Both the position numbers and the translations under genes were made by a program. A stretch of 64,000 nucleotides of DNA from Balneola sp. Its GTDB lineage: Bacteria; Bacteroidota; Rhodothermia; Balneolales; Balneolaceae. The notes beneath the pieces are model-generated. The model did not search any database. It had not been told where the DNA came from and saw only the letters and a list, made by a program, of their open reading frames with translations. The stretch is from assembly GCA_002694685.1 (NCBI GenBank), contig NZMW01000004.1, positions 430,632 to 494,631 of the forward strand, read 5' to 3'. Below are positions 1 to 48,415 of this stretch, piece by piece (the first letter of the stretch is position 1; each line of letters begins with the position of its first letter).

Positions 1-323
1 CTGATACTGTTGAAGGTCTGCACGCTACGACAGCTCAAATGTTTACAGAAGAATTTCAGACGGCTTTCATCTTCAAATACCTGGAGGTTATGGAACCAAG
101 AGAATTTGTTGCAGGTGCTCATGTTTGGAACTTCGCTGATTTCATGACCCCTCAGCATTTCAGAAGGGTAGTTCTAAATAAGAAAGGCGTATTTACTCGC
201 GACCGTCACCCAAAAAGTGTGGCATTCAAGTTAAGAGACCACTGGAATTCATTGGAAAGAATCCAAGATGATCACCGCCCTAAGAAACCTAAGTCAGGTT
301 TTCTTGTCTCTGATATAAAATAA
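1..323 (+). CDS. Beta-glucuronidase (GH2), C-terminal end, 5' partial
   Basis: The gene enters from the left edge; the reading frame is open from base 3 to the TAA at 321-323. About 106 residues remain. They match the end of the GH2 beta-glucuronidase TIM barrel: GLHATTAQMFTEEFQ, then GAHVWNFADF, then NKKGVFTRDRHPK, the segment that in UidA-type enzymes carries the nucleophile-side end of the barrel and the Asn-x-Lys sequence that recognises glucuronate. The NKKGVFTR sequence argues for a true glucuronidase rather than a galactosidase. It would release terminal glucuronic acid from oligosaccharides. The signal peptide, if any, is outside the window. It is followed 34 bp later by the rest of the glycan-use operon, which fits this role. 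Confidence 0.85.
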   Translation, partial: DTVEGLHATTAQMFTEEFQTAFIFKYLEVMEPREFVAGAHVWNFADFMTPQHFRRVVLNKKGVFTRDRHPKSVAFKLRDHWNSLERIQDDHRPKKPKSGFLVSDIK

Positions 324-14106: not shown

Positions 14107-16026
14107 TTAAATAAATTTGTGTCGCACAAAAGCTTCAATGGCTTCGTACTCTGCAAGTCCAAGCTGGTCATAAAGTTCGGCTGTTTTTTGATTTCTTTCT
14201 TCCGCCCGCTGCCAAAATTCTCTTTTATCCGTACCAGGAAAAAGAGGGCGGTCTTTTTGGGATTGATGCTTAAAGATTGCGCTACGTTTTCTGTTCTTCT
14301 CATATGGACTGAGTGGGACTGCCATCTCAATTTCGGAAATATCCCATTCCTGCCAGGCCCCGCGATATAACCACAGCCAACAGTCTTTCATCCAGCTTTT
14401 ATCTTTTAAAATGTTTACAGCTTTAAAGATGGCATCCAGGCATACGCGATGTGTCCCATGAGGATCAGAAAGATCTCCCGCAGCATAAATTTGATGGGGT
14501 TTAATTTCTTCAATCAACTCCTTCACGATTCTAATATCGTCTTTACCGATTGGTTTTTTTCGAATTCTACCCGTTTCATAAAAAGGGAGATTAAGGAAAT
14601 GAATCTGCTCATTGGGTATACCAATAAACCGACATGCGGCTTTGGCTTCTCCCTGGCGTATAAGCCCCTTAATGGTTTTGACTTTTTTGGAGTCTACTTC
14701 CCCGGATTCTTTCTGCTTTAAAAACGCTCGGATGTCTTCAAAAGTTTGAAGTACACTTTCATCTTTGAAATGAAAGGCATCATTATAATCAGTCACAAAA
14801 TCAGCAAACCTAAGTGCTTCATCATCAAAAACAGCAATATTACCGGATGTTTGATAGGCTACGTGAACTTCGTGCCCTTGGTCGGCTAACCGTATAAAAG
14901 TGCCTCCCATTGATATGACATCATCATCGGGGTGGGGACTGAAAATCAGCACTTTTTTTGGGTAAGGTTTTGCTCTTTCGGGACGGGTTGAATCATCAGC
15001 TTCAGGTTTACCTCCTGGCCAGCCCGTGATGGTATGCTGAATTTCATTAAAAATCCGAATATTGATAGAGTAGGAGTCCCCAAAATCAGTAAGGATATCA
15101 TTCATGCCGTTTTCACTATAATCCTGATCTGTGAGCTTTAAAATAGGCTTACCAAGCTTTAGGCTTAACCAAACAACAGCTTTTCTAATCAGAGCGTCGC
15201 TCCACTTGATAGGACCAACCAGCCAGGGAGTTTTGATTTTGGTAAGTTCTGCCGAGGCGGCTTGGTCAAGAATTACTTCCGCATTTTTGTGATGTTGAAG
15301 ATAAGTAGCAGGTACTTGTTCGGTTATTTCACCCTCAACCGTTCTCTTGATGATATCCGCCTTGCCTTCTCCCCAAGCCATGAGCAGTAAACGCTTGGCA
15401 TTCATGATGGTACCAACTCCCATTGTGATTGCCTGCTTAGGAACATTTTCAACCCCATAAAAACTACTAGCTGCATCCAATATTGTCAGGTTGTCCAGAG
15501 CTATAAGCCTGGTTTCAGAGTGAATGGAAGATCCGGGTTCGTTGAAGCCAATATGACCGGTTCTTCCGATCCCTAAAATTTGTATATCCAGCCCTCCTAA
15601 ATCCCTGATTTTTCTCTCATAAGACTTGCAAAAGGGAATCACCTGATTCTTATTAAGTGTTCCATCAGGAATGTTGATTTGCTCCTTTGGGATATTCACA
15701 TGGTCAAAGAAATACTCCTTCATGTAGGTCACATAACTCTGACGAGAATCTGGACTCATCGGGTAATACTCATCAAGATTAAAGGTGAAAACCCGGCTAA
15801 AATCTATTTCTTCTTCACGGTAAATTCTGACAAGTTCATCATATACTTTTACCGGGGTCGACCCTGTCGCTAAACCTAGAGCAGTATGCGTGTTATTCTT
15901 ATTATTCGCCTGAATGGTTGAAGCTATTTCTTGTGCGACAAAGGCTGATGCAAGTGAAGCATCTTCGAAAATACTGGTTGCTATTTTTTCAAATTCACGA
16001 TATTGAGTTGTGACTGGTGACTGCAT
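14107..16026 (-). CDS. nagB: NagB-PIG-L fusion: glucosamine-6-phosphate deaminase plus LmbE-like deacetylase
   Basis: 639 residues. Residues 1-270 are NagB: TFNLDEYYPM (D85) and GIGRTGHIGFNEPGSS (T156 in place of Asp141 of E. coli NagB, H158 and E163 kept). After a linker, residues about 355-639 are a PIG-L/LmbE deacetylase with its zinc motif HPDDD at 365-369 and a later GTHR (AAGDLSDPHGTHRVCL). The fusion is common in Bacteroidota. NagB makes Fru6P from GlcN6P; PIG-L enzymes remove N-acetyl groups from GlcNAc-containing substrates. No nagA is visible, so the second domain may supply the deacetylation step (inference). It is monocistronic, with a candidate operator 29 bp upstream. Confidence 0.88.
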   Translation of the reverse strand: MQSPVTTQYREFEKIATSIFEDASLASAFVAQEIASTIQANNKNNTHTALGLATGSTPVKVYDELVRIYREEEIDFSRVFTFNLDEYYPMSPDSRQSYVTYMKEYFFDHVNIPKEQINIPDGTLNKNQVIPFCKSYERKIRDLGGLDIQILGIGRTGHIGFNEPGSSIHSETRLIALDNLTILDAASSFYGVENVPKQAITMGVGTIMNAKRLLLMAWGEGKADIIKRTVEGEITEQVPATYLQHHKNAEVILDQAASAELTKIKTPWLVGPIKWSDALIRKAVVWLSLKLGKPILKLTDQDYSENGMNDILTDFGDSYSINIRIFNEIQHTITGWPGGKPEADDSTRPERAKPYPKKVLIFSPHPDDDVISMGGTFIRLADQGHEVHVAYQTSGNIAVFDDEALRFADFVTDYNDAFHFKDESVLQTFEDIRAFLKQKESGEVDSKKVKTIKGLIRQGEAKAACRFIGIPNEQIHFLNLPFYETGRIRKKPIGKDDIRIVKELIEEIKPHQIYAAGDLSDPHGTHRVCLDAIFKAVNILKDKSWMKDCWLWLYRGAWQEWDISEIEMAVPLSPYEKNRKRSAIFKHQSQKDRPLFPGTDKREFWQRAEERNQKTAELYDQLGLAEYEAIEAFVRHKFI

Positions 16027-27654: not shown

Positions 27655-27671
27655 GTACCCGAGAGAGGACT
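27655..27671. repeat. Left attachment site (17-bp direct repeat)
   Basis: GTACCCGAGAGAGGACT, identical to 38422-38438. Here it is not part of a full tRNA gene; it is the displaced copy of the tRNA-Leu 3' end and follows a host terminator. Confidence 0.85.
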
Positions 27672-27784
27672 CAAACAATTGAAAAGCCCTGATTAGCTTT
27701 GCCCCATTAAATAACTTCTCAACCCTCTCATAAGGCATTTATGTAATTTAATACTTTCATAAGACGTAATATTATCCCTATATT

Positions 27785-28197: not shown

Positions 28198-29445
28198 ATG
28201 AAAACCACTATCACGCCTTACCTACTGAAGAGAAGAAAAACAGCCGATGGCCTTTATCCTGTTTATTTAAGGATCACTCAAAACAGATCTTACTCACTCT
28301 ATTCTACTGAGATTTACATTGAGGCAAAGAGCTGGAATAAAAAAGGTAATTATACCAAACGGAACTGGATCAAAGATCATCCTTCAGCTGATGCCTGGAA
28401 TAACAAAATATTTCAAATCTGGAATGAGATAAACAGGATTATTGATGAGAATGAAGGTATTGGCAGAAAAGAGATTGTGGAAAAACTCAATGAAACTGAT
28501 GAGGCCAGCTCAATCAAAGTACATGGGTATGCTTATCAATATTCAGAGAAGCTAAAGGATGATGGAAAATTTAATCCCTATAAACAGACCAGGACTTCAG
28601 CGAATAAGTTCAAAGATTATGCTGGAGATGTTTCTTTTGATGAAGTAACACCTTACATGTTGAATGATTTTCAAACATGGCTGGCTAAAGATAAGAAGCA
28701 GGAAGATGGAACCATTGAAAAGGGCAATCATCCCAACACAATAGCCAGCAATATGGTGAAGCTAAAGGCCGTATTTAAGCAAGCTCACAGAGAGGGTATA
28801 ATTGAAGAAAATCCTTTCGATCATTCTATTTATGAACAAACAAAAGAAGTAACAACAAAGAAAAAAGCCTTATCTATTGAGCAAATTCAGAACATTGAGG
28901 CGCTTGAATTGGATGAAGGCTCACAGCTTTGGCATGTAAAAAACTACTTCATGTTTTCTTTCTGGAATGCTGGAATCAGGTTTACAGATTTAGCTCACTT
29001 GAAATGGGAAAATATCAAAGATGGCAGGTTGACCTATACAATGGGAAAGACCCGAAGAGCAAAGGATATACTTCTCACAGAACCAGCAAAGCAGATCCTG
29101 AGCCATTACGAAGATGAATCAAATAAAGATAAGGACTTCATTTTCCCAATACTTCCTGATATGAATATGACTGTTTCCGGTTATAAGAAAAAGGCTAACT
29201 CTCAGAATGTAATTGTAAACAGAAAGCTAAAGGATCTTCAAAAGATGGCTGGAATAGATACAAATATCAGTTTTCACATATCCCGGCATTCATTCGCACG
29301 CTGGGCAAAGGCTAAAGGATTGAGCCTTGATTTTATAGGTAAGGCATTAGCTCACAGTAAGAGAGCCACTACAGAGCAATATCTGGATTCACTCAGTGAA
29401 TATGATGCTGACAAAGAATTGAAAGAACTTGTTCAATCAAGATAA
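28198..29445 (+). CDS. int: Tyrosine-recombinase integrase, Bacteroidota type
   Basis: 415 residues. The first 90 residues form an arm-binding domain (TPYLLKRRKTADGLYPVYLRI ... TEIYIEAKSWNKK); about 105-210 is the SAM-like core-binding domain; the rest is catalytic. Key residues are R261 (NAGIRFTDLAHLKW), H360 and R363 (HISRHSFARWAK), H386 (KALAHSKRAT) and Y395 (EQYLDS). The set is complete, so it should be active in inserting the element into, and cutting it out of, the tRNA-Leu gene. It is placed next to the left attachment site, as is usual. Confidence 0.93.
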   Translation: MKTTITPYLLKRRKTADGLYPVYLRITQNRSYSLYSTEIYIEAKSWNKKGNYTKRNWIKDHPSADAWNNKIFQIWNEINRIIDENEGIGRKEIVEKLNETDEASSIKVHGYAYQYSEKLKDDGKFNPYKQTRTSANKFKDYAGDVSFDEVTPYMLNDFQTWLAKDKKQEDGTIEKGNHPNTIASNMVKLKAVFKQAHREGIIEENPFDHSIYEQTKEVTTKKKALSIEQIQNIEALELDEGSQLWHVKNYFMFSFWNAGIRFTDLAHLKWENIKDGRLTYTMGKTRRAKDILLTEPAKQILSHYEDESNKDKDFIFPILPDMNMTVSGYKKKANSQNVIVNRKLKDLQKMAGIDTNISFHISRHSFARWAKAKGLSLDFIGKALAHSKRATTEQYLDSLSEYDADKELKELVQSR

Positions 29446-30836: not shown

Positions 30837-32351
30837 ATGATATCACCAGATGAAATAATTGATGAAGCCCAAAGACTGGCTAGCCCAAAGCCGGTTCAGA
30901 AAGATGCTTCTTTTGTACTTAAAAACTTATTGGCACAAGTTGAAGAAATAGACTTTGATAAAGAAGCATATCCTAAAGTTGAAAAACTCAGAGCCAAGCA
31001 AAAAGATATTCATGATCCTGATGAATTAAGTGAGATTCAAAAAAAGCTGGACTCATTTAAGCTTTATCAGAAGCATTATCTGATTATAACCATAGAAAAG
31101 CTTTTAGAGGTTGCAAGGGCTAATGAATGGGATCTATGCCAAAGATTAGCAGATTATTACGTCTATAACGGCGAATATTGGCATGTACTTAATAAAGAAG
31201 AGTTGGCAGCATTCTTAGGAAATGTAGCCGAGAAGATGGGAGTTCCGAAATTCGACTCCAGGTATTACGAGTTTAAGGATAAGCTGTTCAAACAGTTTGA
31301 ATCTTCAGCGCACCTTCCGGAGCCTGAAATTGATGGAAACACTGCATTAGTTAACCTTCAAAACGGAACCTTTGAGATAACCCCTAAAGGACAGAATCTG
31401 AGGGAGTTTGATCCAGATGATTTTATGACTTACCAGCTTCCTTTTAAATACACCCCGGAGGCTTCAGCACCACTTTTTGAGAGATACCTTTCTGAAGTGT
31501 TACCAGATCAGGAGAGCCAAACTGTATTGGCTGAGTTTATGGGGTATATTTTTCTAAGAAATCTGAAACTTGAAAAAGTTCTCTTTCTTTATGGATCTGG
31601 TAGGAACGGAAAAAGCGTGATGTTTGACATCATAAAGGCTATGCTGGGAGAGAATAATATCAGTTTCTATGGCCTTCAGAACCTAACTGACGATACAAAT
31701 TATACCCGAGCCAAATTAGTAAATAAGTTGATTAATTGGGCTTCAGATGTAGGTGATAAGCTTCAAAGTAATACCTTTAAACAGCTTGCTTCAGGTGAAC
31801 CGATTGAGGCAAGACTTCCATACAAAGAGCCATTTATACTGAGGAACGTATGTAAATTTGCCTTTAACACAAATAAACTTCCTGCTGATGTTGAGCATAC
31901 AGACGCTTTCTTTGAGCGCTTCCTAATCATTCCCTTTGATCAATACATTGAGCCTGAGAGAAGAGATCCCAAGCTGGCTGAGAAAATCATATCCAATGAG
32001 CTGCCGGGTGTATTTAATTGGGTGCTGGCTGGCCTGAATAGACTGATTGAACAGGAAGGCTTTTCACATTGTGAGGCTTCAGATCAAGTTTTAAAGGACT
32101 TCAGAAAAGAATCTGACTCAGTGGCTTTATTTATGGATGATTTAGGCTATAAAGCAGATCCGGAAAGCTGGACACAGGCTAAACCAGTCTATCAGTCTTA
32201 CCGTGAATGGTGCTTTAGTGAAGGATTGAAACCACTCTCCAAAAAGAACATGCTTAAGCGCTGCGATACCTTAGGGCTTTTCACTAGTACCAAGAATGTT
32301 GGAAAGGTTATTCATATCAAAAAACACCAGGTGAATGGCCATGCTCACTAA
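30837..32351 (+). CDS. P4/D5-type primase-helicase (SF3 ATPase domain)
   Basis: 504 residues. The D5_N-like part runs to about 220 (ENDEWDLCQRLADYYVYNGE region, LVNLQNGTFEI). The SF3 ATPase follows, with Walker A GSGRNGKS (residues 253-260), the acidic NWASDVGD segment and the sensor FAFNTNKLP. The ending ERFLIIPFDQYI and a winged-helix tail (YREWCFSEGLKPLSKKNMLKR) are as in phage P4-family helicases. It would unwind the origin of the element. No primase domain is seen in it; the next gene may supply that part. Confidence 0.9.
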   Translation: MISPDEIIDEAQRLASPKPVQKDASFVLKNLLAQVEEIDFDKEAYPKVEKLRAKQKDIHDPDELSEIQKKLDSFKLYQKHYLIITIEKLLEVARANEWDLCQRLADYYVYNGEYWHVLNKEELAAFLGNVAEKMGVPKFDSRYYEFKDKLFKQFESSAHLPEPEIDGNTALVNLQNGTFEITPKGQNLREFDPDDFMTYQLPFKYTPEASAPLFERYLSEVLPDQESQTVLAEFMGYIFLRNLKLEKVLFLYGSGRNGKSVMFDIIKAMLGENNISFYGLQNLTDDTNYTRAKLVNKLINWASDVGDKLQSNTFKQLASGEPIEARLPYKEPFILRNVCKFAFNTNKLPADVEHTDAFFERFLIIPFDQYIEPERRDPKLAEKIISNELPGVFNWVLAGLNRLIEQEGFSHCEASDQVLKDFRKESDSVALFMDDLGYKADPESWTQAKPVYQSYREWCFSEGLKPLSKKNMLKRCDTLGLFTSTKNVGKVIHIKKHQVNGHAH

Positions 32352-33321
32352 AGAATACAGATATCAATTAGATCCAAGCTCAAAGAAGTTCCGATGTCCA
32401 GCATGTGAGTGCAAAAGATTTGTGAGATACGTTGACCAAGATAATGGAAGCTATCTTCCAGATGATGTTGGAAGGTGCGACAGAGAGCAAAGTTGTGGCT
32501 ATCACAAACCACCACGCCAAGCAGATGGAATTGAGCTTACTAACATGCTTTACAGTAGATCTGAGCCAACCAAAGCACCTAAAGCCAGTACATTGCCAGA
32601 TAAGTATTTGAAGCATTCTCAGGGCAATTATGAAGCCAACACACTTTTATCTTGGATGGCCTCTCTTCCAGGCTGGAGTTGGGAAATCGCCTCTTCAGTT
32701 GCTGAGCTTTATAAAGTAGGTACTTCCAAAGATGGCTGGGCAATATTCTGGCAGATTGATGAAGCTGGAAAGGTGCGATCAGGCAAAATGATGGCATATT
32801 CTGAAGATGGCCACAGATTGAAAACAGGCTATACTCAGGACTGGATACATAGCAAATTAAAGAGAACCGGCCACCTGGAAACCTTTGAGCTTGTTCAATG
32901 TTTTTACGGCCTTCACATTGTAGATGATACCAAACCAGTAGCCATTGTAGAAAGTGAGAAAACAGCTCTTATTGCCTCTCAATATCTGCCTCAGTTCCAT
33001 TGGATTGCTTCAGGCCAGCTTCATGGGATCAGTGAATATAAAATGAAGCCTTTGGCAGGAAGATCAATCACATTGTTTCCAGATATCGGGGTTTATGATC
33101 AATGGAAGGTAAAGGCTGAAGAGTTGAAGGATGTGGCCTCAATTAAGGTATCCACTTTACTGGAAACAAAAGCATCTGAGAGGCATTCGGGATATGATAT
33201 TGCAGATTATTTGATTCAATATGATCTGAGAGATTTTTCACCATACGGATGGAACCCCTGGACTGAAGAGGTTTTCGACTCGAGAGGGTATCCAAAAGAA
33301 TGGGATGATTTGAGTGTTTGA
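32335..33321 (+). CDS. DUF6371/Toprim primase-like protein
   Basis: 328 residues; its start overlaps the helicase end by 17 bp. Near the N-terminus CPACECKRF and GRCDREQSCGY give four cysteines in the spacing of a primase zinc ribbon. The centre contains VAIVESEKTALIASQYL and GRSITLFPDIGVYDQW, which have the Glu and Asp positions of a Toprim domain. This is the DUF6371 type known from Bacteroidota elements. Together with the previous gene it makes a split primase-helicase. Confidence 0.82.
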   Translation: MAMLTKEYRYQLDPSSKKFRCPACECKRFVRYVDQDNGSYLPDDVGRCDREQSCGYHKPPRQADGIELTNMLYSRSEPTKAPKASTLPDKYLKHSQGNYEANTLLSWMASLPGWSWEIASSVAELYKVGTSKDGWAIFWQIDEAGKVRSGKMMAYSEDGHRLKTGYTQDWIHSKLKRTGHLETFELVQCFYGLHIVDDTKPVAIVESEKTALIASQYLPQFHWIASGQLHGISEYKMKPLAGRSITLFPDIGVYDQWKVKAEELKDVASIKVSTLLETKASERHSGYDIADYLIQYDLRDFSPYGWNPWTEEVFDSRGYPKEWDDLSV

Positions 33322-33640: not shown

Positions 33641-34186
33641 ATGTCAACACTCAATCAGATTAGAGAAAGCATTTCAGAACAGAACGCAGCACTTAATAAA
33701 AGTGGTGAAGATTACCGGAACCAAACTAAAGAAGTAAAGGAAAGTTCAGACTTAACAGAGGGCGCTAAGAACAGGCGAGTTAATGAGCTTGAATTAGAAA
33801 GAGATCGAGAGTATAAAAAGCTTCAGGAACAGAAAGCCAATATCATTAACAACGGTATTAAATCACTTGGTAAGCGAGTTTATTCCGGTAGTGAAGTAAG
33901 CAATCCTATTGCCTTTGATCAGGCTGTTCAATCCTTCGCAAATAGCAGCGATGAGGACTTGATACGGATGCTGAAAACAGATCCAAGTGAGGAAACAAAG
34001 AGAGCTATTTATAAAGCTTCTGTTATTTCTGATAACCCCAAGTTTAAGGTTTTGGCAGAGGCTTCAGAAGTATTCCCGAAAGACAAAGAAAAGATCTCAG
34101 ATTATTTTGAGCTGCAGCAGGATTTCGGAAAATTAGAGCCAAGAACTCAAAAACTTTCAAGACGTTTATTTGGTGAAACCGCATAG
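33641..34186 (+). CDS. Element protein with N-terminal coiled coil, unknown
   Basis: 181 residues. Residues about 1-70 form a charged coiled coil (SISEQNAALNKSGEDYRNQ ... ERDREYKKLQEQKANII), then a compact helical region (IAFDQAVQSFANSSDEDLIRML). No signal peptide. The layout resembles a phage scaffold or minor structural protein but no family was recognised. It is followed by a weak terminator-like hairpin. Confidence 0.55.
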   Translation: MSTLNQIRESISEQNAALNKSGEDYRNQTKEVKESSDLTEGAKNRRVNELELERDREYKKLQEQKANIINNGIKSLGKRVYSGSEVSNPIAFDQAVQSFANSSDEDLIRMLKTDPSEETKRAIYKASVISDNPKFKVLAEASEVFPKDKEKISDYFELQQDFGKLEPRTQKLSRRLFGETA

Positions 34187-34275: not shown

Positions 34276-35229
34276 ATGAAAAGACACACAAACCATATTG
34301 ATTCAAAGCAAATCATTTTTACTCCTGATCATTACCAACTGAATGTTGGGGGGCTTAATATTGATTCAGGCGATAAAGAAATTTGGATTACTAAGGATTC
34401 TTTTAAAGCTATCAGGTTTGGTGATTTTACAGCCTCAATCCCTGACACAGTAGAGACAATTGAGTCTGGAATTATTGGAAATGCTGATTTTGAAACAGGC
34501 AACCCACAGGTAGATACATCTGGAACCTATGATTGGGTTGATCCGCTTGGTGGGTCTGGAACCGGAAGCTTTGACAGAAGCAGTGAGTCACATTCAGGAA
34601 CGTATAGCTTGAGAATTAACCGAGGGACTGTAGGTGCAGACTACTACCTGTTTAAGAGATTCTATCAAGAGTTTGACCTTAGTAGCTATCAGGGAAAAAC
34701 AGTAACGGTAAGGGCTAGGGCAAAGTTAAGCTCTGATCCGTTTGATAGAGTGCCTGAAGTTGTATTTAAGCTTTATAAAGGAGCGTGGGGGAGCATAGAA
34801 TCTGTTTTGGCTACCATAGATATTTTTAATGATACCTATCTTCTCACTCAACAAAATGTAACCGTTCCGGATGGTGATGATATTGGTGATCGGGGTGTGT
34901 GGCATACAGTGTCATGTACTTTTGTTGTTCCAGAAGATGCCTCAACGCATCATTTAAGATTTGACTTAGGAGCCTCTCAAGATTCAACAGACATCCTATT
35001 GACTTATATCGACAATGTTGAAGTCATTACATACAAACCTCAAACCTTGTTGGGAAATAATGGCATGATAGCTTATGAGTCTCCCATCAGCTACTTGGAT
35101 ATGACCACCGGGGGAAAGGGAGTTAAATCAAATACGATAGAATTTATGGGCATTAAGAACGGCAACTTGTATTGCAAGCTTCCTGATGGCTCAAAAGCAG
35201 AATTAGAAATTGTAACCAGAGAAACCTAA
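34276..35229 (+). CDS. Tail-fibre-like protein with carbohydrate-binding-type domain
   Basis: 317 residues, no signal peptide. Residues about 70-255 look like a jelly-roll of the CBM4/9 type (IIGNADFETGNPQVDTSGTY, SSESHSGTYSLRINRG, KTVTVRARAKLS, TYIDNVEV). The last 45 residues (TGGKGVKSNTIEFMGIKNGN, then LYCKLPDGSK) resemble the tip of a phage tail fibre. Lack of a signal peptide argues against a secreted enzyme. It is 8 bp before the Ntn-hydrolase gene. Host-surface glycan binding is an inference. Confidence 0.55.
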   Translation: MKRHTNHIDSKQIIFTPDHYQLNVGGLNIDSGDKEIWITKDSFKAIRFGDFTASIPDTVETIESGIIGNADFETGNPQVDTSGTYDWVDPLGGSGTGSFDRSSESHSGTYSLRINRGTVGADYYLFKRFYQEFDLSSYQGKTVTVRARAKLSSDPFDRVPEVVFKLYKGAWGSIESVLATIDIFNDTYLLTQQNVTVPDGDDIGDRGVWHTVSCTFVVPEDASTHHLRFDLGASQDSTDILLTYIDNVEVITYKPQTLLGNNGMIAYESPISYLDMTTGGKGVKSNTIEFMGIKNGNLYCKLPDGSKAELEIVTRET

Positions 35230-35237
35230 GAATAATT

Positions 35238-35882
35238 ATGTCAGTAATAGCATACGCCTGCCTTCCAGATAAAATATTGCTTGCCTCAGATGGGGCTGCT
35301 TTTTTCAATAACGAAATCACTAGCACAAACAACAATAAAATAATCCAAGTCAATTCTCAGGTTGGAATGCTTTGGCTTGGTAATATGCATTCAGTCAAGC
35401 CTATCATTATGAAAAGGTTGGAAGAAGCTGGCGCCAAGTATCCAGAAGAGGTCGCAAAAATCACAGGATTAGTTTTAAAGGAAACTGTAGATGAATTTCT
35501 AAAGCAAATGAAGGATAAACACAATTTCGAGCCAGAGGTTCTCTACAATATCAACACAATTGGTTTTAACCAGGAGGGAAAGCCAGAGCTTTGGAGGCTA
35601 AACAATAGCAAAGAAGACAATCGACATGCCTTCGATCCTGAAAAAGGTCAAATAGTTGTTGGTGGCATTGGTTGCGGTGGATATGATGGGGTTTATACGG
35701 ATCGATTTGGTTCCTTACTTAAACAAGAGCTACCGACATATTCCGGTAAGCCCGGAGAGGCTGAAGACGCAGTATCAATAGCTTTCTTTAGGCTGGTAGA
35801 ACAGTTAAAAAAAGAAGAGAAGCTGGTCGGTGGTAAATTATACCTTGCTTCAATTCAGCATCAACCAAACTCACATGTTTGA
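35238..35882 (+). CDS. Proteasome/HslV-like Ntn hydrolase on the element
   Basis: 214 residues. After loss of the initiator Met the chain starts SVIAYACLPDKILLASDGAA. Numbered from that Ser1, Asp17 and Lys33 fall at exactly the positions of Thr1, Asp17 and Lys33 of proteasome beta subunits and HslV, with Ser1 in place of Thr1. GNMHSV and VGGIGCGGYDG are further Ntn-type glycine-rich segments. There is no ATPase partner nearby. It might cut a structural or regulatory protein; it lies directly after the tail-fibre-like gene. Assignment to the fold is good, the substrate is unknown. Confidence 0.75.
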   Translation: MSVIAYACLPDKILLASDGAAFFNNEITSTNNNKIIQVNSQVGMLWLGNMHSVKPIIMKRLEEAGAKYPEEVAKITGLVLKETVDEFLKQMKDKHNFEPEVLYNINTIGFNQEGKPELWRLNNSKEDNRHAFDPEKGQIVVGGIGCGGYDGVYTDRFGSLLKQELPTYSGKPGEAEDAVSIAFFRLVEQLKKEEKLVGGKLYLASIQHQPNSHV

Positions 35883-36009: not shown

Positions 36010-36462
36010 ATGAATACAGACTTATTTACATATCGACATTATGACTACGTAACAGGCTTTGGGTTCCCCTTTGTCTTTGTAACCTTAACCAGTATGCACG
36101 GCCAAGAAACGAAAGCCGAAATTATCAGGCTTCTTTTGAATTATGAAAAGGATGCTCCATTAACATTAACAAAACGTTCCAGTGTAGATGTTACAGCGCT
36201 TAAATCTGAAGGCTGGGAGAACGACCAGATATTTGATTTTCTACTTGAACACTTTGAAAATCATTTTTCCGGTAAGGTTATGAATGAAGGAACCGAGCTT
36301 TCAAAACAATGCCTGCCACTGAAGCAGAGAAGCTTAAAAATTGATGCCCTGTACCATTTAACCATGGTAGGTGACTTTGAACGAATAAAGGAAAAGGTTT
36401 CTTCAGATACCGTTTCTAACGGACTGAAAAACAGATTATCACAGCTAAAGCCACTCATTTAA
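36010..36462 (+). CDS. Element protein of unknown function
   Basis: 150 residues, no signal peptide and no family recognised. It begins NTDLFTYRHYDYVTGFGFPF, contains a helical middle (QIFDFLLEHFENHFSGKV) and ends in a basic helix (NGLKNRLSQLKPLI). A 127-bp spacer separates it from the Ntn-hydrolase gene, so it may start a second transcript that includes the pseudokinase. Confidence 0.5.
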   Translation: MNTDLFTYRHYDYVTGFGFPFVFVTLTSMHGQETKAEIIRLLLNYEKDAPLTLTKRSSVDVTALKSEGWENDQIFDFLLEHFENHFSGKVMNEGTELSKQCLPLKQRSLKIDALYHLTMVGDFERIKEKVSSDTVSNGLKNRLSQLKPLI

Positions 36463-36515: not shown

Positions 36516-37112
36516 ATGATGGATAACTTTGGGAAATGGAGCGTGCAAAAAAAGAAACATGGAATCTCGACATCTCCAGGCATGGAGGGAGAATATCATA
36601 GGGTACGCAAAGATGGGGATTCTAAAGACTATTTACTAAAAGTGCCCAAGGATTTTAATAGACAGGAATTTGAAATAGAAATTTCAATTCTAAGCTCCCT
36701 TAAACATCCCGGCCTTCCTACCTGCTATGATTATACTGAGAATTATATCGTCATGGACTTTCCGGATGGTAGTATTTACCACGAAAAGTTTCACAAAATA
36801 GATTTGCGTAAGAAGATGGAAATATTTGAATCCATGTGTGATGTTATCGGGTACCTTCACCGGAATAGCTATTCAAACTTTCATCCGGGCTTATTTAACT
36901 TCTACAAGGGAGAGAATGGAAAACCCGTATTGTATGGCTTCAGTGATGTTAGGGATGCCAGAGATGAAGATGGTCTTACCTATGGGTTATTTGGTGACCA
37001 GTTGAATCTTTGCTATGCCTTCTATTCAATGATACATGGAAAAAAAGAAAAGAGTGCGCTTAATAGAAAGATTTATAAAGCTTATACCCAGTATCGAGCA
37101 GAACAACACTGA
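36516..37112 (+). CDS. Protein-kinase-fold protein lacking catalytic residues (pseudokinase)
   Basis: 198 residues; ATG at 36516 or 36519. The small lobe has K42 (YLLKVPKDF) for the ATP-lysine and an alpha-C-like helix ending at LKHPGLPTCYDY; NYIVMDFPDG is the hinge. The segment YLHRNSYSNFHPGLFN aligns without gaps with the kinase catalytic loop: HRD becomes N121-F122-H123, the catalytic Lys becomes G125, while the metal-side Asn128 stays. DFG becomes G141-F142-S143. It is also short, ending after a reduced C-lobe. It is probably inactive and may bind or regulate a partner. Confidence 0.7.
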   Translation: MMDNFGKWSVQKKKHGISTSPGMEGEYHRVRKDGDSKDYLLKVPKDFNRQEFEIEISILSSLKHPGLPTCYDYTENYIVMDFPDGSIYHEKFHKIDLRKKMEIFESMCDVIGYLHRNSYSNFHPGLFNFYKGENGKPVLYGFSDVRDARDEDGLTYGLFGDQLNLCYAFYSMIHGKKEKSALNRKIYKAYTQYRAEQH

Positions 37113-37708: not shown

Positions 37709-37975
37709 ATGGAAGAACAACCCCATGAATCGGGAAACCCTTTTGATAAACTCCCAAAATGTGGAGCTAAGACTAGATCCGGTACTCCCTGTAAGCGACC
37801 AGGCACAAAGAGAAACGGACGTTGTAGATTGCATGGGGGTGCTGAGGGTGTTGGAGCGCCTAAAGGAAACCAGAACGCTTTTAAGCATGGCCTCTATACA
37901 AAAGAATCCATAGCATTCAGGAAGCGAATTAGGAAGCTAGCCAAAAGCACTGATAACTTATTATCCAATCTTTGA
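37709..37975 (+). CDS. HGGxxG-type phage protein
   Basis: 88 residues. CGAKTRSGTPCKRPG, then GRCRLHGGAEGVGAPKGNQNA and FKHGLYTKE make the typical HGGxTG protein of prophages, with Cys-Cys-Cys-His spaced like a small zinc-binding site. The C-terminus is basic. Such proteins are found near integrase-end or terminase modules in many phages, but their role is not settled. It is the last gene of the element and ends just before a terminator. Confidence 0.78.
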   Translation: MEEQPHESGNPFDKLPKCGAKTRSGTPCKRPGTKRNGRCRLHGGAEGVGAPKGNQNAFKHGLYTKESIAFRKRIRKLAKSTDNLLSNL

Positions 37976-38267
37976 TCATTTTATTTCATCCGGTTAAGCC
38001 TCTCAGTTAGTAGCTGAGGGGTTTTTTTATGAATGCCATACCATTAACCAGGAAGAGAGAAAGCCTCACAATTGAAATATGAAAGCCGTTTCTGAGGCTT
38101 TAGGGCTATTTTTGAGAAAAGAGGGTTATGATCAAAAAAAAGGAGCCAGTTCCTTCACCACAAAGGAAACTGGCTCTCGAAATAAACTACCTATTGTTTG
38201 ATAGCACCACACCATCAATATAGGCATTATTGACAGGTGATATAAACCACCTGATCAATTTCATATC
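37976..38267. other. Non-coding right end of element with three hairpins
   Basis: No gene is visible. The stretch holds a terminator (37999-38028), an AAAGCCTCA/TGAGGCTTT inverted pair (38060-38068 and 38093-38101), and a near-perfect 13-bp hairpin at 38143-38176 (GAGCCAGTTCCTT with its complement and one bulge). The rest shows nothing. Confidence 0.6.
37999..38028 (+). terminator. Rho-independent terminator after the HGGxxG gene
   Basis: CCTCTCAG (37999-38006) pairs with CTGAGGGG (38014-38021) with one G-T pair; then a T-tract of 7. Confidence 0.8.
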
Positions 38268-38421: not shown

Positions 38422-38438
38422 GTACCCGAGAGAGGACT
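38422..38438. repeat. Right attachment site (17-bp direct repeat) inside tRNA-Leu
   Basis: Copy of 27655-27671. On the minus strand it covers the T-arm end and acceptor stem of the tRNA-Leu gene, so the element rebuilds the tRNA on insertion. Confidence 0.85.
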
Positions 38439-38504
38439 TGAACCTCCACGTCCGAAGACATACGCACCTGAAGCGCACGCGTCTACCAATTCCGCCACTC
38501 GGGC
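38423..38504 (-). tRNA. tRNA-Leu (anticodon CAG)
   Basis: 82 nt. The minus strand starts GCCCGAGTGGCGGAATTGG and the acceptor stem is GCCCGAG/CTCGGGT (with a G-U last pair). The D-loop is typical for Leu tRNAs. The anticodon loop is TTCAGGT, giving anticodon CAG. A short variable arm with a UUCG loop (TGTCTTCGGACG) and a T-arm GGTTCAAGTCC follow. CCA is not encoded. It is the integration target of the element. Confidence 0.95.
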
Positions 38505-42313: not shown

Positions 42314-45300
42314 TCATTTCACAAGAATCATTTTCCGGGTTTGAACATAGTCTCCGGTAACAATTCTATAGATATACATACCACTTGAAAGGTGAGAGGC
42401 ATCGAAATTTACCTTATGGTAGCCGGCTTTCATTTTTTCATTTGCTAAAGTAGCTACCTTTTGCCCAAGCAGGTTGAATACTTCCAAACGAACATCTACA
42501 GCTTCTTTTAAGCCAAAACGAATGGTTGTTGTTGGATTGAAGGGGTTGGGGTAGTTTTGACTGAGTTCAAATTCTTTTGGAATACCGGCAAGTAACTCAT
42601 TGGCAGTGCCTATGTATTTTTCTTTAACTGCAAATACAAAATCTGAAAACGATGTTAAACCCGTAACTAAGAATGTGTTTTCTACGGAATCAATGCGAAT
42701 ATTTGCCCCCAGATCTTCAATGCTTATCCATGATGAATCTTCATTTGCTCTTTTAAGCACGGTTAGATCCGAATAATTCACGGTATCTAACTCAAATCCT
42801 TCCAGGTCGAATGTTATACTATATTCAAAGTTAAGAGGATCATCGGATGCGGATTGCACCTCTGCTGACCAATAAAAATCCCCCATCAACGTGGATATGC
42901 TATCCGGAAGTTGCTGATCTTCATCTATAAACTTTTTGCTAAATGTTAAATCAAATACACTTCCGGAATTATCATTAATTATATAGAGGTATATACCTAA
43001 TGATTCCAAAATGTATCCTACGGCCCCTTTATCCACAGAAATTGTTTCAGAAGCTATAAATTCAATTTCGATCTGTTTAATTAATGAATCTGTTCCGCCT
43101 TCATTGTCTGTGACTTTAAGAAGTACATTATACGTTCCTTCTTCAGTAAATAATAAGGAGGGTTCCCTTTCTGTTGAAACGGAATCATTACCAAAATCCC
43201 AGTACCACTCACTTATGCCTCCAAATGGATCTTTATGGTCGGATGAAGAGTCAGAAAATTGCACCTGTAAACCACTGGCTGAAAGTTCTTTATCTGAGAC
43301 TCCAAAGTTTGGTATAGGAAGATCATTTACCGCTTCGACAATAATTTCAACGGTGTCTGTTGCAGCGTATCCATCTTTATCTCTCGCTGTGAGATACAAT
43401 GTTGTTGAACCGCTTGAGTCGGGGGTAGGGTATAAATAGAGTGTACTTCCCTTTAAAGTGTCTGTCAGGGCTATTCCCGTACGGCGTACATCATAGGTAA
43501 GGCTGTCATCTATAGCTATATCTTCATCAGTAAAAAGAGTATCAAGGTCTGCATACTCGAAAGAAGGAAAGTCTTCCTGCAGCGATTCGGTTTCAGGTAA
43601 TCGAAATGTACTGACCGGGAAGTCAATAGTATATGAAACTTCAAGTATCACATTGATGGATGCCGAGCTTCCATTGCCATCAGATGCCGTTAATACCAAT
43701 TCGTAGGTTGCCACATCACTTTGGCTTGGGGTTCCGGATAAGGTTAGTGAATCAGCATCGAAAGTAAGCCATTCCGGTAAACTTTCTCCCGCTTTCGTAC
43801 TCATTTCGTAGGAGAGAGAGTCACCATCTGAATCAGAAAAGAGCGATATCGGAAATTCTACATTTTTCTCAACGTCTTCTTCTGCTGTGATATAGAACGT
43901 TTCTGATGTGGCTGTTACGTCATCATTAGTGTTTATAACAGTAATGATAAATTCATCAGTGGCTGTATATTGGCCATCGCTGGCTTCAGCAACAATGGTT
44001 ACGGTACCAACGTGAAGGTTTTCGGGGGTCCCGGAAAGTGTTAAATTTTCATCATCAAACGACAGCCACTGGGGTAAGCTACTGATGCCTTTTTTATGAA
44101 CTTCGTAGATGAGATTTTTGTCATCTTCATCAAAGAATACCGAGCTGATACCCAGGGTAAATAAATCATCTTCTATGGCTGTGGTGTCAGGAATTGGGCT
44201 TACCACTTCCACCGAATCATTGACGTTGTTCACATATAGTTTAAATGAACTTGTAGCACTGTATTCACCGTCAGAGGCGGTTACTTCAATTTCAAACTGA
44301 TAGATATCTACCTGCTCTTGCCGGGCTATGCCACTGAAGGTGTTTGTTTGTGGGTCAAAATTTAGCCATTCGGGCAAATCCGTTTTCCCTTGTTCTGTTG
44401 CTGTATATGTAAACGGTTCTCCATCCGGGTCGTAAAAATTGGTGGTATCCAGAGGGAAAGAAAATGCCGAATCTTCAATCACATGTTCAGGATTTATATC
44501 ACCAAGGAGTATGATATCATCATTAATATTATTCACCTTAAGGAAAAGAGTATCTGTAACAGATGCTCCTGAAGTATCTGTAGCTGTAACAGGAATAAGA
44601 AAGTTTCCAAAGTAATTAGTGAAAACAGTTATTTTTAGCTCAGTCTCATCATTTGAATTCGTCTGAATACTGGTGCTTAGAGTATCTTCAACCGTTCCTG
44701 CCGTGTAAGTTAATTCATCAGGAGTAAACGAAGCATCTGAAGGAACAACCTGATCAACATTATAATCGGAAAAGATTGTATCCAGTTGAACAGCTACAAA
44801 TTGAGGAGAGTCTTCATCGACTGTTATGGTGTCTATTTTATTGGATAGCTGAGGTTCATAACTGATCAGTCTTCCATCATAAAAATCCCAGTCGTCATTA
44901 TTGATGATATCAACTTTTTCGTCATATCCGGCCAATGTATGTTGAATCCCGGTTGCCCTGAAATCTATATTATCCTGTAAGTCTAATGCGGACCAACCAA
45001 TGAGCAAAGAATCATAATTTGCTGTTGAAATGTTGGATTCAGAAATGAAATATCCGAATACCGTTACATTCGAAACATCCCAGCTTCCCAAATTCTGGTT
45101 GAAAGATTCCGCCTGATCAAACATGTTAGCCATGGTTTGAGCAGAACTTACATTCCAACTGCTTAGGTCTTGATTAAATGAAGCGGCGCCGGCAAACATG
45201 GTGTTAAAATTTTCGACTGAAGAAACATCCCAGCTACCGATATTCTGATTGAAAGCCCCTGCGCCAAAGAACATCTCAAACATATTTGTTACTCCGGAAA

Positions 45301-48300
45301 CATCCCATGCGCTGATGTCTACATTGAACAGATCAGCTCCTTTAAATAGTGAATTCATGGAGGTTACATTCGGAAACGACCAGTTACTGATATCGCCGTT
45401 GAAACTCGTTGCTCCGTTAAACATAGAATTTAGAGTGGTAATGGTATTAAGTGTCCAGTTTGGTATATCCTGATTAAATGCAGTCGCATTTAGAAACATC
45501 CATTTTATATCGGTGACATTACTCATATCCCATTGATCGATGGGACTGTTAAAGGCTGTATTATCTCTAAACATCCCCACCATACTTGCAGGGCCAATAT
45601 TCCAACCATTCAGGCTTTGATTGAATATGTCATTGTAAGCAAACATGTAATCCATATTGGTTACAGAGGAAACGTTCCAGCTGCTGATATCCTGGTTAAA
45701 AGCGACCGTGCCCCAAAACATCTCAGACATATTTGTCACAACTGATACATTCCAGCTACTGATATCCTGATTAAAAGCCTCGGATTCCCGGAACATGCCT
45801 TTCATATTAGTTACTGACGATACATCCCAGCTGCTGATGTCTTGATTAAAAACCTGAGCTTTCTGAAACATATAACTCATATCCGTGACGGAAGAAATAT
45901 TCCAGGAACTAATATCCTGATTGAAAGCTGAGGTGCTGTAGAACATATGGTCCATATCCTCCGCACTGGCTACATTCCAGCTTCCTATGTTCTGGTTAAA
46001 AGCATCATTATTAGCGAACATGTACCAGAACTTTGTAACGGAAGATACATCCCAACTACTGATATCCTGGTTGAATGAGTCAGCATTCTGAAACATTGAA
46101 GACATGTTGGTAACATTTGAAACATCCCAAGAACCGATATCCTGGTTAAATAATGAAGCTCCGGCGAACATTCCACTCATGCTTTTTACTGAAGAAACAT
46201 TCCAGCTACTTATGTCTTGGTTGAAAGAGGAAGCACCAGAAAACATAGAGCTAGCGAATTCTAAATTACTCATATTCCAAGTTGTAATATCTCCGTTAAA
46301 AGATTCTGCACTATGGAACATCCCAGACATATTTGTGATGGTTGACACATTCCAGTTGCTTAAATCACCGTCAAAAAGTGTTGCCCCTCTAAACATATTA
46401 TCAAGACTTGTAACCAATGTTAAGTTAGGAGCATCCGTAGCATTATAAACCATGTTTTCAGCTCCTTGGAATGCTTTTTCGAAACTCTCCCAGGGAACCC
46501 CACCCCATTGCTCAATTGACTTGAGCTGAGCCGATTGGGAATTGAGTAGTACATGTTTAGGAAAGATCCCTGAAATTTTCACAGTATATGTACCAGCTGA
46601 AGAATAAGTGTTGCTAATAATAGGGTTCACACCGGAAACAGTTTGATACTTTTCTACCGTGCCATCCCCCCAGTCGATGGTAAATTCATAATCGAAGTTT
46701 TCATCAGTTTCCATTTCCAGATAAAGATTAGAAGCAGGAATCTCCCATGTTGTGATGAAAGGTTCAGGACAAACCTTTTTATCTCCGGAAATGGTCCAGT
46801 TGTAGTTGTCAATTAAAGACTGCCTTGCGGATTCACTTTCACAGTACCAAACACCGGAGCTTCCGGTACCACCGGAAGCTGATCCAAGGGAGACATTACT
46901 TTGAAGAGAGGGTAAGCTATTCCAACCTATTAATGTTGAATCATAATTTGCCTGAGACATACCCATGTTTTCAAGCATCAAATACATATCATTTACAGAA
47001 GAGACATCCCAATTTCCTAAATTTTGATCAAAAACATCGGCCCCCCTGAACATCAAAGCCATGCTTGTTACCTCTGACACATTCCAGCTGCTAATATCTT
47101 GATTAAAGGCATCTGCAAAATAAAACATTGCAGTCATATCCGTAACCGAAGAGACATCCCAACCTCCAATGTTCTGGTTAAAGACACCGGCCCCATGAAA
47201 TGTGTAACTCATATTAGTTACAGAAGATACATCCCAACTGCTAATATCTTGATTAAAAGTATCAGCAGAATAAAACAATCTAGTCATATCCGTAACCGAA
47301 GAGACATTCCAGGCTCCTATATCTTGATTAAAAATAGTGGCATCTGCGAACATGTTTGCCATGTTGGCTACGGAGGATACATCCCAACTACTAATGTCTT
47401 GATTATAGTTACTGGCATTACTAAACATATAGCTCATGCTTTTTACTGAAGAAACATTCCAGCTACTTATGTCTTGGTTGAAAGTATGAGCTCCATAAAA
47501 CATTTTACTCATATTTATAACGTTACTGACATCCCAACTACTAATATTGCCATTAAATGCACCGGCATTCTCAAACATTTGACTCATGCTATTAGCAGAT
47601 GAAACAATCCAGCTATTTAAATTCATATTGAATGAATCATTATCCTTAAACATCCCAATGAAGTCAGAGACACTTGAAACATCCCAGGAACTGATATCCT
47701 GATTAAATGAATCTGCATTCTGAAACATATAGCTCATAAAGGTGACTGAAGAGACATCCCAGCTACTTATATCTTGATTAAAAGCAATTGCATCTGTAAA
47801 CATATATCTCATGTTGGTTACGGAAGAGACATCCCACCCAGAAATATCCTGGTTAAAGGATTTGGCTCCATAGAACATTTGCGACATATTGGTAATAGTT
47901 GATACATCCCAATTACTAATATCAGCATTCATAGATTCAGCCCCATAAAACATTGACGCTAGTGACTGAACCCCAGATAAATCAGGGGCATCAGTAGCAT
48001 TAATGGTTAGGTTTTTGGCATCCCTGAACGCATATTCTAATGAGCTCCATGAATAATCACCCCATTGTTCAATGGTTATGAGTTTCTCAGGATTTGTATT
48101 GGAAAAATAATCGATGTTCGGAAAGGCACCCGTTATTTCTACGCTATATGTACCAGCTGAGGGAAACGTTATGGTCACATCTCCTGTAAGTGATGAAAGT
48201 GAATCTTTATTACTGCTATTACCAACTTCCTCCCAGTAGATATCGTAATTATAAAACTGGCCATTGGTGTTAATAAAGATCTGTGTGTTACTGGTATTTC

Positions 48301-48415
48301 CAGGATTATCAGTCTTCCAGGTAGTAACAAAAGCGTTTTGTGCTTTTAGGTTGGTTCCAAACAGCAGTAAAAGTTGGGTGATAATGATAGTAGCAAATGT
48401 TTTATATGCAGACAT
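42314..48415 (-). CDS. Giant BspA-like surface protein with DUF285 repeats
   Basis: 2033 residues. A signal peptide (residues 1-26) is followed by a PKD-like head (27-150), 13 DUF285 repeats of 25 residues (153-477), a second head of the same kind (550-670), 18 more repeats (672-1120), cadherin/Ig-like domains of the PEWLxFD type (four or so, 1200-1640), a PKD domain (about 1720-1790, EWYWDFGNDS), and a type IX sorting domain (SQNYPNPFNPTTTIRFGL to RKMILVK). The repeat core is MFxxAxxFNQDISSWDVSSVTNM. BspA-like proteins bind host or particle surfaces. It stands alone. Confidence 0.92.
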   Translation of the reverse strand: MSAYKTFATIIITQLLLLFGTNLKAQNAFVTTWKTDNPGNTSNTQIFINTNGQFYNYDIYWEEVGNSSNKDSLSSLTGDVTITFPSAGTYSVEITGAFPNIDYFSNTNPEKLITIEQWGDYSWSSLEYAFRDAKNLTINATDAPDLSGVQSLASMFYGAESMNADISNWDVSTITNMSQMFYGAKSFNQDISGWDVSSVTNMRYMFTDAIAFNQDISSWDVSSVTFMSYMFQNADSFNQDISSWDVSSVSDFIGMFKDNDSFNMNLNSWIVSSANSMSQMFENAGAFNGNISSWDVSNVINMSKMFYGAHTFNQDISSWNVSSVKSMSYMFSNASNYNQDISSWDVSSVANMANMFADATIFNQDIGAWNVSSVTDMTRLFYSADTFNQDISSWDVSSVTNMSYTFHGAGVFNQNIGGWDVSSVTDMTAMFYFADAFNQDISSWNVSEVTSMALMFRGADVFDQNLGNWDVSSVNDMYLMLENMGMSQANYDSTLIGWNSLPSLQSNVSLGSASGGTGSSGVWYCESESARQSLIDNYNWTISGDKKVCPEPFITTWEIPASNLYLEMETDENFDYEFTIDWGDGTVEKYQTVSGVNPIISNTYSSAGTYTVKISGIFPKHVLLNSQSAQLKSIEQWGGVPWESFEKAFQGAENMVYNATDAPNLTLVTSLDNMFRGATLFDGDLSNWNVSTITNMSGMFHSAESFNGDITTWNMSNLEFASSMFSGASSFNQDISSWNVSSVKSMSGMFAGASLFNQDIGSWDVSNVTNMSSMFQNADSFNQDISSWDVSSVTKFWYMFANNDAFNQNIGSWNVASAEDMDHMFYSTSAFNQDISSWNISSVTDMSYMFQKAQVFNQDISSWDVSSVTNMKGMFRESEAFNQDISSWNVSVVTNMSEMFWGTVAFNQDISSWNVSSVTNMDYMFAYNDIFNQSLNGWNIGPASMVGMFRDNTAFNSPIDQWDMSNVTDIKWMFLNATAFNQDIPNWTLNTITTLNSMFNGATSFNGDISNWSFPNVTSMNSLFKGADLFNVDISAWDVSGVTNMFEMFFGAGAFNQNIGSWDVSSVENFNTMFAGAASFNQDLSSWNVSSAQTMANMFDQAESFNQNLGSWDVSNVTVFGYFISESNISTANYDSLLIGWSALDLQDNIDFRATGIQHTLAGYDEKVDIINNDDWDFYDGRLISYEPQLSNKIDTITVDEDSPQFVAVQLDTIFSDYNVDQVVPSDASFTPDELTYTAGTVEDTLSTSIQTNSNDETELKITVFTNYFGNFLIPVTATDTSGASVTDTLFLKVNNINDDIILLGDINPEHVIEDSAFSFPLDTTNFYDPDGEPFTYTATEQGKTDLPEWLNFDPQTNTFSGIARQEQVDIYQFEIEVTASDGEYSATSSFKLYVNNVNDSVEVVSPIPDTTAIEDDLFTLGISSVFFDEDDKNLIYEVHKKGISSLPQWLSFDDENLTLSGTPENLHVGTVTIVAEASDGQYTATDEFIITVINTNDDVTATSETFYITAEEDVEKNVEFPISLFSDSDGDSLSYEMSTKAGESLPEWLTFDADSLTLSGTPSQSDVATYELVLTASDGNGSSASINVILEVSYTIDFPVSTFRLPETESLQEDFPSFEYADLDTLFTDEDIAIDDSLTYDVRRTGIALTDTLKGSTLYLYPTPDSSGSTTLYLTARDKDGYAATDTVEIIVEAVNDLPIPNFGVSDKELSASGLQVQFSDSSSDHKDPFGGISEWYWDFGNDSVSTEREPSLLFTEEGTYNVLLKVTDNEGGTDSLIKQIEIEFIASETISVDKGAVGYILESLGIYLYIINDNSGSVFDLTFSKKFIDEDQQLPDSISTLMGDFYWSAEVQSASDDPLNFEYSITFDLEGFELDTVNYSDLTVLKRANEDSSWISIEDLGANIRIDSVENTFLVTGLTSFSDFVFAVKEKYIGTANELLAGIPKEFELSQNYPNPFNPTTTIRFGLKEAVDVRLEVFNLLGQKVATLANEKMKAGYHKVNFDASHLSSGMYIYRIVTGDYVQTRKMILVK
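45056..46402 (-). repeat. DUF285 repeat tract 2 (18 units, 75 bp period)
   Basis: Eighteen units of 25 codons, one of 24. They are preceded by a second copy of the head domain that also precedes tract 1, so the whole head-plus-tract block appears to have been duplicated. Confidence 0.85.
46985..47959 (-). repeat. DUF285 repeat tract 1 (13 units, 75 bp period)
   Basis: Thirteen consecutive 25-codon units in frame. FNQDIS/SWDVSS is nearly unchanged from unit to unit, whereas the MF-x-x-A part varies. Such repeats can recombine. Confidence 0.85.

Follow-up and report, generated by a model that had tools for sequence, protein, structure and literature searches.

An open reading frame in the window (the whole stretch of 64,000 nucleotides of Balneola sp. 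DNA analysed here) raises two questions: whether its product is a genuine relative of proteasome beta subunits and HslV, and what such a protein would do on an integrated element. The frame (35238-35882, forward strand) is open throughout, and its ATG is the first ATG, GTG or TTG past the previous stop. Numbered after the initiator Met, the protein, hereafter P0001, carries Ser1, Asp17 and Lys33 exactly at the catalytic positions proposed in a first-pass annotation, and Gly47, on which that annotation was silent, fits the oxyanion position. The family survey by Fuchs, Alva and Lupas (2021, PMC8665760) gives Thr1 or Ser1, Asp17 and Lys33 as the catalytic triad and Gly47 as the oxyanion hole.

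A three-residue motif by itself proves little, since Ser, Thr or Cys at position 2 together with Asp18 and Lys34 (Met counted) is expected by chance about 2.2 times per 3500 genes; with Gly48 added, the expectation is about 0.17 per 3500 genes (computed with the residue frequencies of 454 ORFs, each 150 aa or longer). The motif being insufficient alone, relatives and a fold were therefore needed to establish the family. Curated models are of limited help. P0001 falls below the cut-offs of PF00227 (E 0.017; 15.2 against 22.4 bits) and TIGR03634 (E 0.0046; 16.6 against 224 bits) and has no match in PHROGs; its Pfam matches to MavL (0.0011) and Sigma70_r2 (0.011), also below cut-off, were taken as chance. 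Pfam alone would have missed the family, because P0002 and P0005 are unmatched and P0003 has no match of note at the limits used.

A search of 296 genomes of the phylum with P0001 gave two near full-length relatives, one in the genus of the window host (G061, E 1.4e-7) and one in its family (G282, E 3.8e-5), namely Fodinibius salsisoli of the Balneolaceae. A third, in the genus of F. salsisoli (G296), was missed by P0001 alone and recovered with a three-row profile among 244 genomes of the class (E 6.8e-10). At E 0.02 the four-row profile matched 5 of the 244 class genomes, of which four hold true members; the fifth match (G454) is a short stretch inside a 1139-aa frame. No additional member came from a draw of 394 phylum genomes; the extra match there, a 186-aa ORF of G429, is unrelated. 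A DNA-pattern scan of the genome collection returned six stretches, the only true one being that on the F. salsisoli contig. Hence all four proteins come from one bacterial family, two from each of two genera.

The four proteins are 206-217 residues long and all start with Met-Ser, and the three relatives are 28, 24 and 27% identical to P0001. Their alignment has 16 invariant columns, including Met1, Ser2, Asp18, Lys34 and Gly48; the probability that all four catalytic positions would fall at random among the 15 non-Met invariant columns is 1.6e-5 (hypergeometric). The Asp, Lys and Gly columns are aligned and invariant in all four, Lys and Gly being shifted by insertions in the three relatives. 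The earlier remark that Ser stands in place of Thr at the nucleophile position holds for all four proteins.

Other candidates were rejected. Overlapping ORFs at 23 weak-profile loci (L008, L009, L033-L050, L056, L098, L099) were unrelated by eye, L045 having no ORF that satisfied the overlap rule, and the weak loci L004 and L005 are unrelated as well. Against phage records, tblastn with P0001 gave ten partial matches at chance level (E 1-6), which fall under portal, head-tail adaptor or connector genes (one is named just gp42); P0002 gave a single partial match (E 0.6) and P0003 none at E 1. Nine partial matches in plasmid records (E 6-10) were judged non-relatives. In IMG/VR, four protein or alignment scans yielded no confirmed relative, confirmation being by the first sequence only. 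DNA-pattern scans there, whose patterns demand specific codons, returned 3 and 41 stretches; no relative was seen by eye among the translated 3 and the 7 translations of at least 120 aa out of 42 from the 41.

The fold predicted for this family is that of proteasome-type Ntn hydrolases. The AlphaFold model of P0001 (three rows) is of moderate confidence, given its pLDDT of 62.5 and pTM of 0.63. In Foldseek, 20S proteasome chains rank first (E 6.6e-7, TM-score about 0.5); VIA-align gives a best Z of 12.3 (rmsd 3.9 over 174 residues, 20S proteasome), with Anbu and mycobacterial proteasome chains at 11.6. The model of the relative P0003 (four rows) is better (pLDDT 73.3, pTM 0.75; best Foldseek E 9.4e-9). 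It superposes on a 20S beta chain with Z 14.6 (rmsd 3.1 over 165 residues) and on T. maritima HslV with Z 14.5, where residues 2..203 of the model pair with 1..171 of the chain (rmsd 2.9 over 165). Many rows align model residue 2 with chain residue 1, so that Ser falls in the place of the catalytic Thr. Among the phage proteins that Foldseek retrieved from viral models, several in number, two bear the name HslV or proteasome subunit; folds missing from these fold tables are not thereby excluded. In addition, when the four-row profile was compared with PDB sequences, proteasome chains made up the first ten rows and 12 of the 18 at E up to 10, the best E being 0.0081, the sole value below 0.1, and the others at least 0.2. 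A model lacking the Ntn fold, or homologues in which Ser2, Asp18 and Lys34 vary, had been named as evidence that would speak against the assignment; we find instead the proteasome fold in the models of two members and all three residues conserved in four of four. It is conservation and fold, beyond the motif, that make the Ntn assignment real.

The gene lies within 10.8 kb bounded by direct repeats. The features of this element are, from left to right:

27655..27676, no strand: attL-like direct repeat of 22 nt, with a 17-nt exact core in common with 38422
28198..29445, forward: tyrosine integrase (PF00589 1.2e-18; PHROG integrase 3.2e-36)
30837..32351, forward: D5-type replicative primase/helicase (PF08706, PF19263; PHROG DNA primase 1.2e-80)
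32335..33321, forward: protein with zinc ribbon and DUF6371 (Pfam), with a probable role in replication
33641..34186, forward: coiled-coil-like protein by reading, without convincing family match
34276..35229, forward: fibre-like protein, the proposed substrate (CBM_4_9 below cut-off; 8-nt gap to the Ntn gene; role putative)
35238..35882, forward: proteasome-like Ntn hydrolase of 214 aa, with Ser1, Asp17, Lys33 and Gly47 after Met removal
36010..36462, forward: 150-aa protein without convincing family match
36516..37112, forward: small protein resembling protein kinases (Pfam Pkinase match below cut-off, 0.0051)
37709..37975, forward: small-terminase-like fragment of 88 aa (PHROG 4.8e-8)
37996..38024, forward: terminator-like hairpin (13 pairs) with a T run behind it, 3' of the rightward genes (consensus scan only)
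38422..38443, no strand: attR-like repeat in the 3'-terminal part of the reverse-strand tRNA-Leu(cag) gene (38422-38504)

The suggestion of an integrated element is thus borne out by imperfect 22-nt repeats, with two mismatches and an exact core of 17 nt, which occur at 27655 and in the 3'-terminal part of the tRNA-Leu gene (38422). The small terminase is reduced to an 88-aa piece, so the element may be partly degraded. As for the remark that no ATPase partner is near, it holds for an unfoldase among the ten other element proteins scanned; the ATP-using proteins recognised among them are the D5-type primase/helicase and the kinase-like protein, the latter below cut-off.

All four Ntn genes sit on elements of 8.7-10.8 kb bounded by att-like repeats. 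Those of G061 (9.3 kb, 17-nt repeats) and G282 (8.7 kb, 72-nt repeats) are at tRNA-Leu genes. The element of G296 (9.0 kb) has 13-nt repeats, and G282 carries one copy at the equivalent unoccupied site; ARAGORN detected no tRNA in the G296 stretches examined. The exact 72-nt att-like repeat that flanks the F. salsisoli element (G282:C1, 42561 and 51209) is unusually long. An integrase is recognised by Pfam in three of the four elements and by reading in G061. The search for homologues beside phage structural genes, proposed as a check, was fruitful: the element of G296 has genes for TerL and for a capsid protein of HK97 type (PF05065 1.5e-28, the match starting at residue 125), and that of G061 encodes TerL and a tail terminator (PF13554 6.7e-16). 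No packaging or capsid gene was recognised among the four ORFs besides the Ntn gene scanned in the G282 element, and the genome of the window host has no PF05065 capsid gene. The G296 element with its capsid and terminase genes (L052, G296:C15:129353-130465) has by reading neither portal nor prohead protease.

Because of their size, integrase and packaging genes, the elements fit phage satellites. As comparison class we take PICI and capsid-forming PICI; the PICI-like combination of size (about 7-20 kb), integrase and att repeats describes all four. The likeness includes replication genes, a terminase in two elements and a capsid gene in one, whereas the present lineage does not occur among the literature matches listed. 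Among open-licence PMC papers, none was found that treats phage satellites together with the proteasome.

How do these proteins relate to known ones? Bacterial and phage homologues of the proteasome, among them PPH, AAH and CPH, were described in PMC8665760, and on this Ntn family the literature matches listed contained nothing beyond that paper. It lists Thr1 or Ser1 and, for the new homologues, reports no co-occurring AAA+ interactors, and it reports no genomic context or co-occurrence that would indicate a specific function. A Ser1 protein without an ATPase, singled out as noteworthy in the first-pass annotation, is indeed present here, but as a type it had already been described in that survey. 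The likeness to the homologues described there comprises the fold core, the residues Thr1/Ser1-Asp17-Lys33-Gly47, the lack of a recognised AAA+ partner and the location in phages or phage-derived islands. The differences are as follows. PPH, as defined in that survey, has about 140 residues and no helix H2, whereas the present proteins have 206-217 and the models of both members show at least two helices in the H2 region (54-63 and 69-95 in P0001; 55-64 and within 67-99 in P0003). A further difference is that the present genes are carried by satellite-like elements, where they follow a tail-like gene. VpV262 p41, with an hhalign probability of 0.5, was rejected as a near relative. A search for homologues of the VpV262 protein gave 322 phage records; in 25 the match spans 80% of its length or more, and among the best 40 of the 322 rows 9 are annotated as HslV.

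With HslV the family shares the spacing of Asp17 and Lys33 and, in the case of the host enzyme, the SDG, Lys and Gly columns. In contrast, all four proteins have Ser where host HslV has Thr, they are longer and without a significant profile match to it, and no HslU gene stands beside the Ntn gene of the window, the host hslVU pair being elsewhere in the genome. A PF00227 search of the host genome found no second proteasome subunit gene besides HslV. The best structural matches are 20S proteasome beta chains, from which the family differs by Ser1, by the lack of a propeptide and by scores below the PF00227 and TIGR03634 cut-offs. Anbu, for which the criterion is a long C-terminal coiled-coil helix, scores within 1 Z unit of the best rows; that helix is short in the P0003 model and absent from that of P0001. 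Being neither PPH (length, helices) nor HslV (nucleophile, partner), the Ntn proteins are, in this comparison with PPH, HslV, 20S beta subunits and Anbu, a new, highly divergent branch among the already described phage proteasome homologues.

The setting of this branch recurs: its genes are carried by satellite-like elements, immediately after a tail-like gene. A fibre-like gene lies directly upstream of the Ntn gene in three of the four elements, with gaps of 8 nt in the window, 1 nt in G282 and 26 nt in G296; in G061, a 132-aa ORF without family match, itself downstream of the tail terminator gene, overlaps the Ntn start by 13 nt. The first-pass annotation had placed the gene after a tail-fibre-like one: the adjacency stands, while the label, mainly drawn from sequence character, is plausible but weak, for the upstream genes of the other elements as well. 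The window protein (34276-35229) reaches 24.6 bits for CBM_4_9 against a cut-off of 25.9; those of G282 and G296 have no Pfam match, and none of the three matches PHROG or, at E 1e-3, any of 50,697 phage records. The two fibre-like proteins of the Fodinibius genus share just a 29-residue match, and the window protein shows no convincing match to that of G296.

What, then, would the protein do? Its evidence consists of sequence, conservation, predicted fold, element anatomy and gene order, from which we infer activity, oligomeric state, substrate and role. The place of the gene hints at help in building or maturing a virus-like particle. Our main reading, with a probability of roughly 0.4, is that the Ntn protein is an ATP-independent Ser1 hydrolase of the late module of a satellite and acts on the adjacent tail-like protein. 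Removal of Met1 would expose Ser1 as the nucleophile, Asp17 and Lys33 serving as its charge partners and the amide of Gly47 forming the oxyanion hole, as in proteasome beta subunits and HslV. The protein, apparently having neither propeptide nor dedicated unfoldase, would act independently of ATP on a narrow, loosely folded or assembling substrate. Because of the gene order, this substrate would be the tail-like protein encoded directly upstream, which would be trimmed or helped to mature; at this position relative to the fibre gene, several phages have the gene of a tail-fibre chaperone of about 20 kDa (PMC7289586). If the link holds, it offers a testable substrate for a proteasome relative devoid of an unfoldase, a possible new way of maturing a virion protein and a proteasome-type enzyme employed by a parasite of phages. 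That Balneolaceae satellites use a dedicated proteasome-type peptidase, acting in trans, to mature a tail-tip or fibre protein of their own is a more specific claim, and a doubtful one; if true, the peptidase would be a new kind of virion-maturation enzyme, and gene order would hint at what an orphan proteasome homologue does.

The tail-gene context comes from a small sample of four elements, two per genus, and is not general, since other phage proteasome homologues occupy varied places, near lysis, head-tail, terminase or replication genes among others. In six regions opened, two homologues lie by lysis genes (one also by a terminase gene), one between head-completion and head-closure genes and three elsewhere; the VpV262 p41 gene is outside the virion block. 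Moreover, the Gly-Ser-Gly stretch in the second half of HslV is not conserved in the four Ntn proteins, a loss that could mean altered or lost activity. Because of these varied places and of this loss, we considered roles in defence, as a chaperone or ligase, and in head maturation.

First, the Ntn protein, perhaps with the kinase-like protein, might be accessory cargo that attacks a protein of a competing phage or of the host. In the window, one ORF separates the Ntn gene from a kinase-like gene further downstream (Pfam 0.0051); in G061 a kinase-like gene adjoins it (Pfam 5.3e-10). Kinase-type defence models give weak matches for both kinase-like proteins (mad6, 7.1e-8 and 6.3e-9; PD-T4-6), and satellites that carry anti-phage systems are described in PMC9122126. 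We nevertheless consider such cargo unlikely: none of the four Ntn sequences hits a PADLOC model, by BLASTP the two kinase-like proteins have at most 8 residues in common, and that of the window resembles generic kinases, 55 of the 92 genomes of the family having matches to it, most of them within larger frames. The other two elements have, by reading, no kinase-like gene, and in G061 and G296 the Ntn gene stands among particle genes. BLASTP did not support the kinase-like proteins, or the coiled-coil proteins, of the window and G061 as homologous pairs. With no normal HRD/DFG by eye, the kinase-like proteins (window 36516-37112; L019 8865-9404) are perhaps pseudokinases.

Second, the proteasome fold could have been retained without net hydrolysis of peptides, either in a chaperone or scaffold or in a transpeptidase or ligase similar to connectase. 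The unconserved Gly-Ser-Gly stretch would be in keeping with this, and the family as outlined in PMC8665760 includes the ligase connectase. The gene position is also that of fibre chaperones, which PMC7289586 places directly downstream of fibre genes: V22 gp27 (21.8 kDa), T4 gp38 (22.3 kDa) and Mu Tfa (20.3 kDa), proteins to which the likeness is one of gene position and size only. However, all four catalytic positions, like the Met-Ser start, are unchanged in relatives 24-28% identical to P0001, which argues for catalysis and makes this role quite unlikely.

Third, the Ntn protein could substitute for a missing prohead protease and cleave an N-terminal extension of the HK97-type capsid protein of the satellite or its helper. 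The G296 element has such a capsid gene and, by reading, no prohead protease; by eye, a gene like that of a classical prohead protease precedes a capsid gene 36% identical to it on another contig (G312:C281, L114). On the other hand, a capsid gene is recognised in only one of the four elements, where four genes separate it from the Ntn gene, and a helper could bring its own protease, so we hold head maturation to be improbable. Finally, it is very improbable that the protein is a satellite-encoded HslV borrowing the host HslU for protein degradation, for although host HslU adjoins host HslV and the P0003 model matches HslV in fold, a profile comparison with host HslV aligns 63 columns only (probability 1.3), and the Ntn protein has Ser for Thr, about 30 more residues and no HslU gene alongside.

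Two further genes of the window, outside the element, deserve mention. At 42314-48415, a 2033-aa protein contains many near-identical repeats of the SSWDVSSVTNMSYMF type and presumably ends in a C-terminal sorting-type domain. At 14107-16026, close to what reads as an amino-sugar gene cluster (window 1-12 kb), a glucosamine-6-phosphate deaminase-like domain is, by reading, fused with a deacetylase-like domain.
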